From positions 124,001-188,000 of the forward strand of contig JAJDTU010000001.1 of NCBI GenBank assembly GCA_022826965.1: DNA of 64,000 bases. Reading direction: 5' to 3'. Positions 41,286 through 50,204 of the stretch are shown here, piece by piece (the stretch's first letter is position 1; the number at the start of each line of letters is the position of its first letter). The notes beneath the pieces were generated by a model. That model did not search any database. It was not told the origin of the DNA and saw nothing but the letters and a program-made list of their open reading frames with translations. The position numbers and the translations under genes are program-made. The stretch is from Dehalococcoidia bacterium (GTDB lineage Bacteria > Chloroflexota > Dehalococcoidia > Bin125).

Positions 41286-42170
41286 ATGGCGACCCACCAC
41301 GGTGAGCGAATGATCGAGGGCAACGGCGTCGAAATCTGCACCGACTCCTTCGGCGATCCCAGCAACCCGGCGATCCTGCTGTTCTCGGGCGGGTCGGGGT
41401 CGATGCTGCTCTGGGAGGAAGACTTCTGCGAGCGCCTCGCCGACGGCGGACGCTTTGTCATTCGCCACGATCAACGCGACACCGGGAAGACCACCTCTTG
41501 TCCACCGGGCGAGCCGAACTACACGCTCTATGACATGGCCGCCGACGGCGTGGCGGTGCTCGACGCATACGGCGTGGAACGAGCGCACATCGCGGGCCTG
41601 TCGATGGGCGGATTCATCACCCAGTTGGCCGCGCTCGACTATCCCGAGCGGGTGCTGACCCTGACGCAGATGATGTCCACGCCCGATCTGCACGCTTTCC
41701 TGGCGCCGCTGCTGGGCAATCCGGAGGGGACGAAGCTGCCGCCGCCCAGGCCGCAAGTGATGGAGGCGTTCGCCGCAGTCGGCGAGATCGACGGGAATGA
41801 TCCGGACGCCGTGCTTGCCGGCCGAGTCAGGCTGTTTCAGTCGTTGCAGGGCTCGAAGTATCGGGGCCAGGGCCGCAGCAAGGAACTGCTTCGCGCCGAA
41901 ATTGACCGCGCGATCAGCTTCCAGAGCAGCATGAACCACGTCGGCGCAGAGCTTCAGACCGAGCCCTGGGTCCACCGTCTCGGCGAACTGGACCTCCCCA
42001 CGCTGGTGATCCACGGCGACGAGGATCCGATCGTGCCGTTCGAGCATGGTGAGGCGGTCCAGGCAGCGATCCGAGGGTCAACGCTGCTGCGCATGGAAGG
42101 CGTGGGTCACGAGCTTCCCAGAGGAGTCTGGGACGTGGTCGTGCCCGCGATCCTGGAGCACACCAGCTGA
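41286..42170 (+). CDS. Alpha/beta hydrolase, tandem copy A
   Basis: 294 aa. It begins MATHHGERMIEGNGVEICTD. The nucleophile elbow is AGLSMGGFI. The acid loop is VIHGDEDPIVP and the catalytic His is in GVGHELPRGVW. The RHDQRDTGKTT segment after strand 4 and the overall plan recall the RdmC/aclacinomycin-methylesterase-like group. It is clearly paralogous to the next gene (same length, same start and end sequences). It lies 34 bases after the CoA-transferase, so it is probably cotranscribed. Confidence 0.88.
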   Translation: MATHHGERMIEGNGVEICTDSFGDPSNPAILLFSGGSGSMLLWEEDFCERLADGGRFVIRHDQRDTGKTTSCPPGEPNYTLYDMAADGVAVLDAYGVERAHIAGLSMGGFITQLAALDYPERVLTLTQMMSTPDLHAFLAPLLGNPEGTKLPPPRPQVMEAFAAVGEIDGNDPDAVLAGRVRLFQSLQGSKYRGQGRSKELLRAEIDRAISFQSSMNHVGAELQTEPWVHRLGELDLPTLVIHGDEDPIVPFEHGEAVQAAIRGSTLLRMEGVGHELPRGVWDVVVPAILEHTS

Positions 42171-42200
42171 AGACTCACCGCACACTACAGGAGCCCGACC

Positions 42201-43085
42201 ATGGCGACGCATCACGGCGAGCGCATGATCGACGCCAACGGCATCCGGATCTGCACCGATTCCTTCGGCGACCCCACCGATCCGACCATCCTGCTCGTCA
42301 TGGGCGCAGGCGGTTCGATGATGGGCTGGCGCGATGAGTTCTGCCAGCGACTCGCCGACCCCGGACGCTTCGTCATTCGCTACGACAACCGCGACACCGG
42401 CAAGACCACGCCACACTGTCCCCCGGGCGAACCGAACTACACGCTCGACGTCCTGGCCGACGACGCCGTGGCAGTCCTCGACGCCTATCAGGTTGAGCAG
42501 GCCCACATTCTCGGCATCTCGATGGGCGGCATGATCACCCAGCTGATCGGCCTCAACCACCCCAACCGAGTGCTCACCATCACACCAATCATGTCCACGC
42601 CCCAGGCCGGCGTGGTGACGGACGCGTTCGCGGGCAAGGACGTGATCGAGCTCTCCCCGCCGCACCGCAAGGTGCTCAACCTCGTGACCAGCCGCGACCA
42701 GATCGACTGGACCGACCGTGAGACAGTGATCGCGATGCAGGTCGAGTCCTTCGCCACGATCAAAGGTTCCCGCTATCCCGAGGATCCCGCAATGGCCGAC
42801 CACATCGCCAGAGACTTCGATCGAGCTATCAACTACGCCAGCTCCGTTAATCACACACCCGCCATGGCGCAGTCCGATGCCTGGCATCACCGGCTAAGCG
42901 AGATCAACAAGCCGACCCTCGTCATCCATGGCGACGAAGACCCCATCCTCCCCTACGACCACGGCCAGGCCCTCCACGCCGCGATCAGCGGCTCGACCTT
43001 GCTCACCATGGAAGGCGTCGGCCACGAACTCCCGCGCGGCATCTGGGACACGGTGATCCCCGCCATCCTCGACCACACCAGCTAA
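42201..43085 (+). CDS. Alpha/beta hydrolase, tandem copy B
   Basis: 294 aa paralogue of the preceding gene: MATHHGERMIDANGIRICTD start, LGISMGGMI elbow, VIHGDEDPILP acid loop, GVGHELPRGIWD for the His, and the same HTS C-terminus. The central lid (about 150-220) is the most divergent part, suggesting changed substrate choice after duplication. A ribosome site (ACAGGAG) precedes the ATG. The gene ends just before a GC-rich palindromic repeat. Confidence 0.88.
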   Translation: MATHHGERMIDANGIRICTDSFGDPTDPTILLVMGAGGSMMGWRDEFCQRLADPGRFVIRYDNRDTGKTTPHCPPGEPNYTLDVLADDAVAVLDAYQVEQAHILGISMGGMITQLIGLNHPNRVLTITPIMSTPQAGVVTDAFAGKDVIELSPPHRKVLNLVTSRDQIDWTDRETVIAMQVESFATIKGSRYPEDPAMADHIARDFDRAINYASSVNHTPAMAQSDAWHHRLSEINKPTLVIHGDEDPILPYDHGQALHAAISGSTLLTMEGVGHELPRGIWDTVIPAILDHTS

Positions 43086-44929: not shown

Positions 44930-45006
44930 GGGTCCTTAGCTCAGTTGGCCAGAGCAGCGGACTTTTAATCCGAAGGTCCTGGGTTCGAGTCCCAGAGGAC
45001 CCACCA
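44930..45006 (+). tRNA. tRNA-Lys (anticodon TTT), CCA encoded
   Basis: A full cloverleaf: acceptor GGGTCCT pairs with AGGACCC, D-arm GCTC/GAGC, anticodon loop CTTTTAA with TTT, T-arm CTGGG-TTCGAGT-CCCAG, discriminator A at 45003 and genomic CCA at 45004-45006. The anticodon stem has one G-A mismatch at its base. It marks the left edge of a region with accessory genes. Confidence 0.95.
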
Positions 45007-45065: not shown

Positions 45066-45722
45066 GTGAAGAAGTACATCCTCTTCGACCACGACGGTGT
45101 CCTGGTCGAAACGGAACAGTGGTACTACCTGGCCAACAAGCGAGCGCTGCGTTCGCTCGGAATCGATCTCCCGCGAGACGCCTATCTGGCCAACATGGCC
45201 AACGGAGTCTCCGCCTGGGAGGCGGCGCGAAGCGCCGCAATCCCCGAATCCGACATCAAACGTGGCCGAGAACAACGAGACCGTTACTACCGGCACTACC
45301 TGACGACCGAAGACATCGAAATCGAGGGCGTCCTCGAAACACTGGCCGCACTCGCAGACACGTACAGGATGGCGATTGTGACCACATCCAAGCGGCCGGA
45401 CTTCGACCTGATCCACGAGAACCGGTCCATCCTCGACCACATGGAGTTCCATCTGACCGAGGAGGATTACGAGCAAGCCAAGCCGCATCCGGAACCCTAC
45501 CTGACAGGCCTCGAACGCTTCGGAGCAACTGCCGCTGAGACCGTCGTGGTCGAAGACTCGGCCAGAGGCTTGAAGTCCGCAGTCGCATCCGGCATCGACT
45601 GCATCGTCGTCGCCAACGACTTCACCGCAACCCACGATCTGTCCCTGGCAACTGCCAGGGTCGCCACGTTCCGCGACCTGCCATCTGCAATCGAGCGCCT
45701 GACGACGTCATCCCGTCGCTAG
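45066..45722 (+). CDS. HAD-superfamily phosphatase (beta-phosphoglucomutase-like)
   Basis: 218 aa from a GTG. Motif I ILFDHDGVLVET (DxDGV), helical cap about 20-85, motif II AIVTTSKRPDF, motif III Lys in QAKPHPEPYLTGL, motif IV VVEDSARGLKSAVASG. Such proteins are phosphatases or phosphomutases; the substrate is not readable. Its stop overlaps the stop of the converging DHFR-like gene by 4 bases. Confidence 0.88.
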   Translation: MKKYILFDHDGVLVETEQWYYLANKRALRSLGIDLPRDAYLANMANGVSAWEAARSAAIPESDIKRGREQRDRYYRHYLTTEDIEIEGVLETLAALADTYRMAIVTTSKRPDFDLIHENRSILDHMEFHLTEEDYEQAKPHPEPYLTGLERFGATAAETVVVEDSARGLKSAVASGIDCIVVANDFTATHDLSLATARVATFRDLPSAIERLTTSSRR

Positions 45723-46360
45723 TCCGCCCGCACATACCGCAGATGAGTCGCCAACCGACCCTCGATCACCTCCGCAATCCGATACCCCGACCCAACCTCC
45801 GGCACCTCCTCGAACAGCCGCCGCCCGCCGCCGAAGATCACCGGCGCCAGCGCGATCTCCAGCTCCTCGATCACGCCCATCCGCAGGTACTGCTGAATCA
45901 CGTTCGCCCCGCCCGAGATCCGAATATCCCCTGCGCCCGCCGCCTCCCGCGCCAGCTCCAGCGCCCGCTCCGGACCATCCTCAACGAAGAAGAACGTCGT
46001 CCCGCCCGGCCGCACCCACGCCTCCCGCGGCTGATGCGTCAGCACAAACACCGAGTTGTGGAACGGCGCCTCCTCGGGCCAGGAGATCTCGCCCTGGTCG
46101 AACATCCGCCTGCCCATGATGTTCGCCCCGGTCTCCTCCGTAATCCGCCGCTGCAGATCGTTCACCGGACCGGTCTCCCCGCCCTCGCCGAATCCCAGGT
46201 TCTCGCGAAAGTGCTCCAGCTCGAAGATCCAGCCCATCAGCGACCCCCACTTCGCCGCCCAGTCCAGGTACGCCGGCTCATCCCAGTGCGCAACCGCCAT
46301 CCCCTCCGGAGCCATGTACCCGTCAAGGCTCAACCCAATATTGACAAACACCCGCCCCAT
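45719..46360 (-). CDS. Dihydrofolate reductase-fold (RibD C-terminal-like) protein, second copy
   Basis: 213 aa from the ATG before GRVFVNIGLSLDGYMAPEG. ANIMGRRMFDQGEISWPEE and VFVLTHQPREAW are the family landmarks, then ISGGANVIQQYLRMGVIEELEIALAPVIFGGGRRLF. It is related to, but not a close copy of, the protein at 43149-43730. A longer start adds 19 non-conserved residues. It converges with the HAD gene. The function of this family is mostly unknown. Confidence 0.87.
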   Translation of the reverse strand: MGRVFVNIGLSLDGYMAPEGMAVAHWDEPAYLDWAAKWGSLMGWIFELEHFRENLGFGEGGETGPVNDLQRRITEETGANIMGRRMFDQGEISWPEEAPFHNSVFVLTHQPREAWVRPGGTTFFFVEDGPERALELAREAAGAGDIRISGGANVIQQYLRMGVIEELEIALAPVIFGGGRRLFEEVPEVGSGYRIAEVIEGRLATHLRYVRAD

Positions 46361-46468
46361 CTCGCCCTCCCTCGTGAGCAGGCCGCTCCGACTCCAGCCA
46401 GGAGACCGCCCGAGCAAAGCCTAACGACCAGCCAGTCCCGTCGCCCAAATCCCCCAAAACTGGACCTA

Positions 46469-46545
46469 GGCCCCGACCCTCAGCCGGCCAGACCAGCGGA
46501 CCTTCAATCCGAGGGCCTCGTGTTCGAATCCCAGAGGGCCCACCA
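46469..46545 (+). pseudogene. Decayed tRNA-Lys copy
   Basis: About 77 bases aligning end to end with the tRNA-Lys at 44930-45006, including the anticodon arm frame (loop CCTTCAA), the T-loop TTCGAAT and the CCA, and some flanking sequence (AAACTGG before it and CCTCTCATC after it). The D-stem no longer pairs (CCTC/GACC), and the invariant U33 is C. It is therefore unlikely to be a working tRNA despite an apparent TTC anticodon. Confidence 0.75.
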
Positions 46546-46604
46546 TCAGAATCCTCTCATCAATGAGTCATTGAGCATCACTCTGGCCGTCGGTATCACC
46601 TTGT

Positions 46605-48335
46605 CTATTCGTCAGGACGCAACGACGCCAACCAAAGAATGATCCACAGGACCAAGGCAGCGTCTGCGTGTGGATCCTGTGATCGCACACCATGTGCGCA
46701 ACTGTCACGGAGGTTCATCGCATGATTGTCCACAAGCAGATACGCAAGCATGCGCGCATTCGACGCGCCGATAACGTCATGTAGATCGTCCAGAATGGGC
46801 CGCAAACCCCGCAGACCTCCACACTCATCCCCTTGAGGCGGAAATGAAATCTCGACTCCCGCCTTGCGCGCCAGCATTCTTATCGTGGACTCGATCCTCG
46901 GAAGTGCAATATGCACCGCTGTGTCATAGTCCCGTGCCCAATAGAAATCGAAAGCCTTGGCGAATATGTCAACCTCGAAGTCGTCGATCACGACAGAGTC
47001 AGCCAAGATCTCGCGTATCGACGCTCGCTCCGCCTCGGGCCGTTCCTCAATCGAGGCCAGACATGGGGCGATGAATAGAAGTGCTGCAATTGAAGCTTGC
47101 GTACGGAAATGCTCTGCTATCCCTCGACGCAGTTTCGCATCGTTGCTGGTCGGGCGGCAGCATTCGATGCCGTCATGCACGATGTGCACTCGGCCAATGA
47201 GATTGATCAACCTCGGTTCGTTATGAATGCGCTCCGCTTCCTCCTCGATCAAGTCGATTCGGCCTAGCGATTTGAATCCCCAGGCCGTTGTGATCTCAAT
47301 GGCATCTGACATAGTTTCAGCGGATCGCACAGTAGTCGTGATTTTCTCAATGACTTCGTTTGGCACGGACTGCTCCGCACTGATCTCGTGAAACTCACCG
47401 TCGTAAGCCAAGCCGCCCCGGATTCCCCGAATCTCCTCGATCAGTGCCGATTCGCCATTTCCGCCCTTAGCCCACTCCTCTGCCTCTTGGAGAAACCTGC
47501 CAGCGCGCAGATCCGAGTCTGCGCGTTTCGCTTCGTTGATGAACATTTGACTGGCATTGGTACGAATCTGTCGTTCGAGACCCTTATCTTTGTCCTGCTC
47601 GGCCATGGAACGCTGGATCTTGTACAGCGACTCCCTGAGAGTCCACGTCTCCCCTTCCGGCCGAGCGAGGTAACCGGCTTGCAAGGACTCGATCCTCTCC
47701 GCCAAGGCAGATGGCCGATGCTGTGCTGGTAGGCACGCAGCGGCACGGATGGCCCAGTGCGAGTCTTCTCCGTGCGTCTCGGCAAACATCGCCTCGCACC
47801 GCTTCGCGATGCCGTGGTACTCTGCCGGAGCGTTGAGGACCTTCGTCAACTCAGCAGCGCGACACAACAAGCTTTGTTGACGCATTTCGAGGTGGATAAT
47901 GTCCGAGCCCTGCAATTCGTCGAAGAACTGAAGATAGTTGACAATCGCCGCCCGGGCGTATAGGTGCGCCTGTTGTCGCTCGCCATACTTGAGAAACCAC
48001 AACATATCGTTCAGCATCGCAGTAACGAGCGGGTGCTTTGTGTATGAGGTCAGTTCGTGCCAGACTTCGAGGACTTCGGGATGCTCGTCGCGGATGAACT
48101 GGAGCAGTCCTTCTGCGGCTCCGAACACGGCTACGATTGGGCCAGCAGACGATGGACGTGTCGAACCGACAAATCTGAAGTTCGCGAACATCGCAACAGC
48201 TCGTCCAACCGGCTCGTCACGCTGTGCCTCGGTGATTCCAAAATCTACGCGCGTGTCCCAGTTGAATTGATCCGACTTCGCAGCCCAATCATCGAGAAGT
48301 GTCGCCATGCGTTCAGTATCGATCTGCTCAGACAT
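46605..48335 (-). CDS. DUF4209-like protein with C-terminal HEPN-type motif
   Basis: 576 aa, largely helical, no signal peptide or membrane helix. The C-terminus carries NLRDSCAHGV, matching the NLRNxxAHG motif I associate with DUF4209 and the HEPN R-x4-H pattern (Arg543, His548). HEPN domains are often RNases in toxin-antitoxin and anti-phage systems. The N-terminal two thirds are helical repeats without a recognised family. Base composition is visibly less GC-rich than in neighbouring genes, consistent with transfer. It lies downstream of a decayed tRNA copy. Family assignment is from memory of motifs and is tentative. Confidence 0.6.
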   Translation of the reverse strand: MSEQIDTERMATLLDDWAAKSDQFNWDTRVDFGITEAQRDEPVGRAVAMFANFRFVGSTRPSSAGPIVAVFGAAEGLLQFIRDEHPEVLEVWHELTSYTKHPLVTAMLNDMLWFLKYGERQQAHLYARAAIVNYLQFFDELQGSDIIHLEMRQQSLLCRAAELTKVLNAPAEYHGIAKRCEAMFAETHGEDSHWAIRAAACLPAQHRPSALAERIESLQAGYLARPEGETWTLRESLYKIQRSMAEQDKDKGLERQIRTNASQMFINEAKRADSDLRAGRFLQEAEEWAKGGNGESALIEEIRGIRGGLAYDGEFHEISAEQSVPNEVIEKITTTVRSAETMSDAIEITTAWGFKSLGRIDLIEEEAERIHNEPRLINLIGRVHIVHDGIECCRPTSNDAKLRRGIAEHFRTQASIAALLFIAPCLASIEERPEAERASIREILADSVVIDDFEVDIFAKAFDFYWARDYDTAVHIALPRIESTIRMLARKAGVEISFPPQGDECGGLRGLRPILDDLHDVIGASNARMLAYLLVDNHAMNLRDSCAHGVRSQDPHADAALVLWIILWLASLRPDE

Positions 48336-48507
48336 CCTCGACTTCCTTTCACCATCCAGCCCCGGCGTCGATTCTCAGCCCGCAGACCACTCAGCGTCAG
48401 AGTGCTCGATTTGATGCGATCGCACGGCCCGCAGCGAGAGGGCGGCCCCCGCAGGTCTAGGGTCCACAGGTTGAAGCCGCGACGCTCCCCAAGGTTATGT
48501 CATAGTC

Positions 48508-49302
48508 CTAGAGACTGCCAAGTTGATGTCGCGTATGCAACGTACGCTGGAATCCTCGCGGAAACCTGTAGAGCATTTCCATCGGAAGCCCGGCTACGTC
48601 GTGCTCAGCATCGCTCGGGATGGTCTCAATGTCGCTAAGCGCTGCGTGCTCCGGGACCGCCGTAAACGCCGCTGCAAGCGCGTCCAGGATGTCATTCTCG
48701 TTGACACCCCGGTGGCCCATCGAGAGTGCATCTCGCCAGATCGACTCCGCCATCGGTTCGATGTTGCACAGCACCGCCAGCCGCTCGCGGATACCCTCAT
48801 CCTTCTTCTTGGAGTGGGACATCGCGCGCTCACCGTTGAATCCCCAGAAGCAGAGCTCTGGATGAACCTCCCTGATCTTCTTACGGGCGGCGTCGCTCGA
48901 CCTCAGGAGCACGTCGACTTCACCGACTTTGGGCACAATCCCCCAGGCCTGCTTGCTCAGTCCTTTTCCAAGTTCGCGACGGTTGGTATCAGAGCCGGCT
49001 TGGTAGTTCTGGTATCCGCCTTGCCGGAACGCTTCGATGGCCGCCCGGCCCGGCGCTGGAAACACCGACGAACCACGTTTACCTAACATCCTGCGAGCCA
49101 AGCGGTCAGCCGAACGGGTTCGGCGCTCAGAATTCGGCAACCCGATCGGGATATCAATCAAAATGAGCGACGCGGCTCCCCATTCGTCAAACAAGGCGGC
49201 CACAGTCGGGAAGACTCGAATGTCCCAACCTCCCGCGGTGAAGGAAGTGATGCGGATTGCCAGCCAACCATCCTTGGCCCAGTCCACACCGATGACATCC
49301 AT
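48508..49302 (-). CDS. DUF429-family predicted nuclease (RNase H-like fold)
   Basis: 264 aa. MDVIGVDWAKDGWLAI (first acidic strand), ILIDIPIGLPNSERRTRSADRLAR, LGKRGSSVFPAPGRAAI, IREVHPELCFWGFNGE and NENDILDALAAAFTA are the ordered landmarks of DUF429, in which the acidic residues suggest an RNase H-like metal site. Its biological role is not established. Like the preceding DUF4209-like gene it has lower GC than the core genes, and both read in the same direction with a 172-base gap. Confidence 0.82.
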   Translation of the reverse strand: MDVIGVDWAKDGWLAIRITSFTAGGWDIRVFPTVAALFDEWGAASLILIDIPIGLPNSERRTRSADRLARRMLGKRGSSVFPAPGRAAIEAFRQGGYQNYQAGSDTNRRELGKGLSKQAWGIVPKVGEVDVLLRSSDAARKKIREVHPELCFWGFNGERAMSHSKKKDEGIRERLAVLCNIEPMAESIWRDALSMGHRGVNENDILDALAAAFTAVPEHAALSDIETIPSDAEHDVAGLPMEMLYRFPRGFQRTLHTRHQLGSL

Positions 49303-49457
49303 CTAGATCTCCTTCCAGACGCCAGCGCCGCTGCGGTGCTGAGTAGGCTACTAGCGCCACACCCCGCCCCGAACCCGTGCCCGCATAAGATCACCCCAGC
49401 CGGACCAGAGCGTATCGAAGCCCATCCAAACCCAATCCCCCAACCCCGAAATCGCCC

Positions 49458-50204
49458 ATGACCGTCGACCCCATCTTCGCCGACCCCACCCTCGCCGACC
49501 TCTACGACACCTTCTCCCTCCACCGACGCGACTTCGACTTCTACCTCCCCTTCCTCATGGCCGCCGACAGCGTCCTCGACGTCGGTTGCGGCACCGGCGA
49601 GCTCCTGCGTTCCGCCCGCCAGGCCGGCCACACCGGACGCCTCTGCGGCCTGGACCCCGCGGCCGCCATGCTCGATCTGGCCAGGCAGAAGCAGACCGAC
49701 GTCGAGTGGATCCTGGGCGATCTGTCCGCGCTCGACCGGCGCCACCAGTTCGACCTCGTCGTCATGACCGGTCACGCCTTCCAGGTCTTCATCGACGACG
49801 ACCAGCTGCGCCACGCGCTCGCAACGATTCGCTCCCTCCTCAACGGCCACGGCCGCTTCGCCTTCGAGACCCGAAACCCGCTTGTCCGCGCCTGGGAACG
49901 CTGGACCCCCGAGCACGCCGTCGAAGTCGTCCACAACGGCCGGACCGTCCGCATGGCCCACCAGGTCGAGACCCCCATCACTGGCGACCTCGTCTCCTTC
50001 ACCCACACCTTCACCAGCCCCGGCTGGGATCAGCCCCAGGTCAGCCGAAGCACCCTCCGCTTCCTCGACCGCGGCGCGCTCGCCGCCTTCCTCTCCGACG
50101 CCGGCGTCGCCATCGAGCAACAGTTCGGAGACTGGGAGCACCAGCCCTTCACCCCAACCAGCCCCGAAATCATCACCATCGCTAGGCCCGCCAGGCCCGC
50201 CTGA
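49458..50204 (+). CDS. Class I SAM-dependent methyltransferase
   Basis: 248 aa. Motif I VLDVGCGTGELLRSARQAG, motif II GLDPAAAMLDLARQK, then WILGDLSALDRRHQFDLVVMTGHAFQVF and LLNGHGRFAFETRNP. A complete Methyltransf_25-type core lies at about 40-145 and an all-beta C-terminal half at about 150-235. The substrate is unknown. Its last codons run into a duplicated fragment of the phosphotransferase gene (copy at 50206-50272 on the other strand). Confidence 0.9.
   Translation: MTVDPIFADPTLADLYDTFSLHRRDFDFYLPFLMAADSVLDVGCGTGELLRSARQAGHTGRLCGLDPAAAMLDLARQKQTDVEWILGDLSALDRRHQFDLVVMTGHAFQVFIDDDQLRHALATIRSLLNGHGRFAFETRNPLVRAWERWTPEHAVEVVHNGRTVRMAHQVETPITGDLVSFTHTFTSPGWDQPQVSRSTLRFLDRGALAAFLSDAGVAIEQQFGDWEHQPFTPTSPEIITIARPARPA

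Follow-up and report, generated by a model that had tools for sequence, protein, structure and literature searches.

Introduction

The DUF4209 family overlaps with the C6orf70 family of HEPN domains and was placed in the HEPN superfamily by 2013 (Anantharaman et al. 2013, PMC3710099). According to this study, HEPN domains are characterized by an Rx4-6H motif, a polar residue (N, D, or H) following the arginine, and an upstream Ex3[KR] motif, and the DUF4209/C6orf70 family occurs in fusions with TPR repeats and in operons related to restriction-modification. HEPN proteins also comprise the anticodon nucleases PrrC and RloC, which are associated with restriction-modification, and the toxins of HEPN-MNT toxin-antitoxin pairs. 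A second family of relevance here is DUF429, which has already been predicted to be RNase-H-like and whose genomic context has been described as conserved between closely related taxa, with mobility considered unlikely (PMC3985635).

In this study, we analyzed a stretch of 64,000 nucleotides from a Dehalococcoidia bacterium, referred to as the window, which encodes a protein of the C6orf70/DUF4209 type next to a clear member of the RNase-H-like DUF429 superfamily. Like the published C6orf70/DUF4209 proteins, the window protein has an Rx4H motif with a polar residue after the arginine, an Ex3R motif, and a putative helical-repeat N-terminus (in the published case a TPR fusion), and it shares the restriction-modification context; in contrast, the modification gene of the window genome is present as a relic only. 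Eukaryotic C6orf70 members reportedly possess a transmembrane segment, whereas the strongest hydrophobic stretch of the window protein is modest (KD19 1.49). The likeness to PrrC and RloC would consist of a HEPN RNase beside DNA modification that provides a second, suicidal line of defence (PMC3710099). Unlike these nucleases, the window system has no ABC-ATPase and belongs to the DUF4209 family, and the methyltransferase linked to it is not of Type I but of the N6_N4 type and fused to HNH.

Results

A DUF4209 protein with a predicted C-terminal HEPN-type domain

The gene under study starts with ATG, is preceded by a plausible ribosome-binding site (AAAGGAAG), and encodes 576 amino acids. A promoter and terminator scan at the locus yielded nothing exceeding shuffled sequences. 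The features of the gene and its product are:

46605-48335, minus strand: DUF7380/DUF4209 protein of 576 aa, a candidate for defence resembling PDC-S39, with a HEPN-type domain at its C-terminus
46620-47030, minus strand: HEPN-type (DUF4209) domain, residues 436-572, scoring 23.1 bits alone against a Pfam cut-off of 22.3
46692-46709, minus strand: R543-D-S-C-A-H548, an Rx4H motif in which the R is followed by a polar residue and both R and H are invariant across all 29 aligned domains
46878-46892, minus strand: E482-x3-R486, the HEPN Ex3[KR] motif (definition in PMC3710099), invariant
47391-48335, minus strand: N-terminal alpha-solenoid of the structure model, about residues 1-315, with generic helical-repeat matches only

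When the whole protein was compared to Pfam, two weak matches were obtained, neither of which reached its cut-off: DUF7380 aligned to residues 87-171 with an E value of 1.4e-4, and DUF4209 to residues 511-567 with an E value of 7e-4 and 20.0 bits, slightly under the required 22.3. We rejected the Rx4-6H motif alone as worthless evidence for a HEPN domain, as 99% of shuffled versions of the window protein contain an R-x4-6-H; the narrower R[NDH]-x3-5-H is present in 42%. The motif stands above chance because R543, H548, E482/R486, and P479 are invariant among the relatives. In a first alignment, composed of 17 sequences of which most are encoded by Chloroflexota genomes, the invariant non-initiator columns were A130, P479, E482, R486, R543, and H548, and all of these except A130 were also invariant in a second alignment of 17 sequences, which combined four members of the first with 13 from viral-collection contigs. 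The same five residues were invariant in an alignment of 29 domain sequences, 18-45% identical to the domain of the window protein, in which R543 is followed by D in the window and by N or H in the relatives. Each of these 29 domains matched the DUF4209 profile with an E value of 0.01 or better, and the window protein displays all of the published sequence hallmarks of HEPN domains.

A first structure model based on four sequences was of low quality across the HEPN part (mean pLDDT 60). The model based on 17 sequences had a mean pLDDT of 79.8, with about 83-95 across most of the HEPN region. Residues 1-315 of the model resemble alpha-solenoids of a generic kind and might serve as a platform for sensing or for binding a partner. 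The fold search with the whole model, which mainly tested these residues, listed generic solenoids only and no HEPN chain, and a profile search of PDB sequences matched no solved HEPN structure. Family membership and motif together suggest that the C-terminal part adopts a HEPN fold.

Based on its sequence, the window protein is assigned to the C6orf70/DUF4209 branch of the HEPN superfamily. A preliminary description of this DNA had pointed to R543 and H548 within an NLRDSCAHG sequence of this open reading frame, and had read the protein as about 500 uncharacterized helical residues attached to a C-terminal HEPN-type domain. The frame is real, both residues are exactly where they were placed, and the uncharacterized part is helical in the 17-sequence model. 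The domain call is likewise right, being supported by the Rx4H and Ex3R motifs and the DUF4209 match, but not new, as the assignment was already in the literature and the family is also catalogued by PADLOC.

A divergent member of the PDC-S39 family

Residues 80-566 of the window protein matched positions 82-574 of the PADLOC profile PDC-S39 with an E value of 2.7e-29. PDC-S39 is a single-gene candidate for phage defence, its defensive role being itself a prediction. The window protein scored 100 bits against this profile, compared to about 700 bits for core members. All 17 members of alignment A2 matched it. The window protein is 16-24% identical to most of the other aligned members and 36-37% identical to the closest ones; its closest DUF4209 relative, encoded by genome G017, shares 37% across the full length. 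Judged from these scores and the full-length match, the window protein is a member of a divergent PDC-S39 branch.

DUF4209 genes are sporadically distributed, occurring in 13 of 400 genomes of the phylum and in 5 of 61 relatives, and were found on Klebsiella and Streptomyces plasmids as well as on contigs of viral collections. Two scans of viral contigs with the window-type subfamily yielded no relative, and neither did a search of phage records. The surroundings of several DUF4209 genes contain restriction genes, namely an EcoRI-type methylase and GmrSD_N-HNH (L043), GmrSD (L039 and L041), and HsdM (L047), in agreement with the published association with restriction-modification. At L051, the DUF4209 gene lies near a STAND-like ATPase gene with TPR; this STAND/AAA-TPR-like gene (L051:5632-7881, G673) is located directly upstream on the same strand, and the two might form a sensor-effector pair. 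A Pfam scan of 104 flanking genes, given for the 25 commonest of 97 families, was headed by phage integrases (4 hits) and GmrSD_N (3 hits). The G017 copy is located between the genes for GAPDH and enolase, with no obvious defence island.

This position of the G017 copy would suit a housekeeping protein of RNA processing or decay, a bacterial counterpart of C6orf70/ERMARD that has no role in defence, and C6orf70, a member of the same HEPN family, has been predicted to act in RNA degradation at the ER membrane (PMC3710099). However, such a protein would not be expected to show the sporadic distribution, the copies on plasmids and viral contigs, the nearby restriction genes of its relatives, or the insertion described below, for which G011 and G004 have empty sites, and we regard a housekeeping role as distinctly improbable.

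In genome G043, the DUF4209 relative at L052:7205-9484 has a C-terminal extension which, by eye, reads as an MNT-type nucleotidyltransferase (GSHARGE...DVDLLI). If this reading holds, one chain would join a HEPN toxin to the class of antitoxin that usually accompanies it. The extension would speak for DUF4209-HEPN being the toxin of a HEPN-MNT-like toxin-antitoxin pair, since in both cases the toxin is a HEPN RNase. Yet no MNT or small antitoxin gene was identified alongside the window gene, the neighbours of which encode a RibD_C protein, the DUF429 protein, and a methyltransferase-domain protein, and the Klebsiella plasmid relatives have no annotated partner. There is thus little to recommend a toxin-antitoxin pair at this locus.

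An insertion at a putative tRNA-Lys-linked variable site

The DUF4209 gene is part of an insertion of approximately 3.0 kb with the following elements and surroundings:

44930-45006, plus strand: tRNA-Lys(ttt), at which a variable site of the genus is anchored
45719-46417, minus strand: left flank, RibD_C protein
46424-49464, no strand: the insertion (about 3.0 kb), which the same-genus genomes G011 and G004 do not have
46445-46545, plus strand: degenerate tRNA-Lys copy, left edge of the insertion
48347-48433, minus strand: relic of 29 codons, 3' end of a DNA methyltransferase-HNH gene, between the DUF429 and DUF4209 genes
48508-49302, minus strand: DUF429 protein of 264 aa, predicted RNase-H-like; a neighbour whose pairing with DUF4209 is not conserved
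49458-50204, plus strand: right flank, methyltransferase-domain protein

In G011 and G004, the RibD_C and methyltransferase-domain genes of the two flanks are about 40-60 bp apart. The two inserted genes have GC3 values of 0.63 and 0.69, compared to 0.76-0.91 in the four neighbouring genes measured. Positions 46479-46545 correspond to a degenerate 3' part of tRNA-Lys and are 82% identical to the gene at 44930-45006, and a comparable island of genome G010 is bordered directly by tRNA-Lys on one side and by the same right-flank gene on the other. The empty sites, the tRNA-Lys copy, and the G010 island together give the site the appearance of a variable locus linked to tRNA-Lys. The degenerate copy, which ARAGORN did not call, follows the real tRNA-Lys at a distance of about 1.5 kb. 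Elsewhere in the window, at 41286-43085, two adjacent similar open reading frames of 294 aa encode alpha/beta-hydrolase-like proteins, apparently a tandem duplication.

The relic of a methyltransferase-HNH gene precedes the DUF4209 gene

The relic directly upstream of the DUF4209 start codon is 72% identical to residues 391-419 of a methyltransferase-HNH protein from the G010 island (tblastn in the window, E 8e-8), which carries N6_N4_Mtase and HNH domains. These 29 codons are all that was found of the gene directly upstream of DUF4209 in the window. In G017, the DUF4209 gene begins 2 bp after a gutted methyltransferase-HNH open reading frame with an HNH profile match, in which the first ~50 methyltransferase residues run straight into the HNH part. 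A link of this DUF4209 branch to methyltransferase-HNH was hence seen twice and a link to DUF429 once, and the original partner of the window gene appears, from sequence comparison, to have been a DNA methyltransferase-HNH gene. A further methyltransferase-HNH fragment (residues 37-90, with stops) was noted in the window's own genome at G000:C8:8839-9000.

As the methyltransferase has been lost in the window, the DUF4209 gene would therefore act alone, as predicted for PDC-S39, or be a passenger. The passenger reading, in which the effector is part of a decaying remnant left after methyltransferase loss, is in line with the state of the methyltransferase gene in three genomes, reduced to 29 codons here, gutted in G017, and decayed in G008. 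We nevertheless consider it unlikely, as the effector frame is intact, retains every invariant residue, and is preceded by a plausible ribosome-binding site, and the G017 copy is likewise intact.

Four intact methyltransferase-HNH genes of the close clade, compared with no matched control, are each followed by an overlapping second gene (-4 to -8 bp). In G010 this gene encodes a TIR protein, in G005 a HEPN protein of PF05168, in G002 a protein with a hydrophobic tail, and in G017 an unrelated protein whose tail is weakly hydrophobic. A decayed methyltransferase-HNH gene in G008 is followed by a gene for a 30% identical relative of the G002 hydrophobic-tail protein; two further copies are uninformative, as another copy of G008 (contig C40) has no obvious partner downstream and that of G012 stops at the contig edge. 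More distant methyltransferase-HNH genes have mixed genes downstream. Methyltransferase-HNH genes whose downstream neighbour, overlapping or adjoining, encodes a TIR, HEPN, or hydrophobic-tail protein were noted at L104:6149-8451, L137:856-3026, L138:1-2300, L141:3916-6103, and L142:987-1918. The comparison suggests an interchangeable set consisting of the TIR, the PF05168 HEPN, the hydrophobic-tail (G002 and G008), and the weak-tail (G017) proteins and of DUF4209-HEPN (second copy of G017 and the window); in both DUF4209 cases the methyltransferase is degenerate. As a tentative model for this Dehalococcoidia family, to which we attach well under even chances, the N6/N4 methyltransferase-HNH might be the fixed half of a two-gene cassette, acting as sensor or guard, and the overlapping second gene might encode a replaceable suicide effector, with recombination in the conserved HNH end bringing about the exchange. 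This pattern of interchangeable effectors is possibly the sole new part of our findings.

The adjacent DUF429 gene is not a conserved partner

The DUF429 gene is assigned to PF04250 with an E value of 8.2e-52, and the acidic residues of the family are kept in its product. The preliminary description had noted the RNase H-like acidic pattern, correctly so and in accord with the published prediction (PMC3985635), and had proposed that the DUF4209 and DUF429 genes form an undescribed two-nuclease defence module. A single two-nuclease operon would agree with the shared strand, the distance of 172 bp, the common insertion, the lowered GC3 of both genes, and the retention of the acidic residues. However, when a DUF429 profile built from 8 homologues was applied to the neighbourhoods of 17 distinct DUF4209 relatives, DUF429 was detected in the window only, and tblastn searches of 31 DUF4209 neighbourhoods revealed none beside relatives; viral-contig flanks were covered in these searches with DUF429 sequences close to that of the window. 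The Pfam scan of 104 flanking genes, given for the 25 commonest of 97 families, would by itself leave room for a single DUF429. The Klebsiella plasmid copies of DUF4209 have no annotated DUF429 alongside. PF04250 is present in 9 of 16 DUF4209-bearing genomes, and in 9 of these 9 it is found on a different contig; G017 has no close DUF429 homologue but a distant one on a separate contig. Conversely, G002, which has no DUF4209 match, possesses a 66% identical DUF429; its contig runs from within the same tRNA-Lys into a homologue of the window's phosphotransferase gene. In G008, a gene for a DUF429 relative (57%) shares its strand with a UvrD-like helicase gene that follows shortly downstream (L054:2175-6036).

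DUF429 was rejected as a functional partner of DUF4209 on this co-occurrence, no DUF429 having been detected beside about 30 relatives. By the refuting condition that the preliminary description itself had set, the two genes are not neighbours in the other genomes compared, the HNH relic between them indicates that DUF4209 once followed another gene, and DUF429 is described as having a context unlikely to be mobile (PMC3985635). We concluded that the chance of a two-nuclease operon is very slim. Of the preliminary description, the HEPN-type domain thus stands, whereas the undescribed module with DUF429 is not supported, the relic pointing to a different original partner.

Discussion

Taken together, the window gene probably encodes a stand-alone HEPN RNase effector of the DUF4209/C6orf70 (PDC-S39) family that was acquired horizontally as part of a modification-linked abortive-infection cassette with a methyltransferase-HNH gene. 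By analogy with its family, the protein would be an RNase that dimerizes and is triggered by phage. The C-terminal HEPN-type domain probably forms dimers, as HEPN RNases do, in which R543/H548 and E482 would cut cellular or phage RNA in a metal-free reaction, while the N-terminal alpha-solenoid probably serves to sense infection or to bind a partner. Cutting of RNA would likely halt the cell or the phage, resulting in abortive infection or dormancy. The gene would have arrived at the tRNA-Lys-linked site as the second gene of a methyltransferase-HNH plus effector cassette, the methyltransferase later being lost except for the end of its HNH part. The methyltransferase may earlier have controlled the effector or cooperated with it.

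With this locus, a HEPN family whose function in phage defence is a prediction gains a divergent member that was acquired by horizontal transfer, and the tempting pairing with DUF429 is shown not to be conserved. A divergent member with a methyltransferase-HNH history is in itself of modest interest. The methyltransferase-HNH relic and the interchangeable downstream genes, in turn, lead to a concrete hypothesis as to how RNases of this kind may be coupled to DNA modification.
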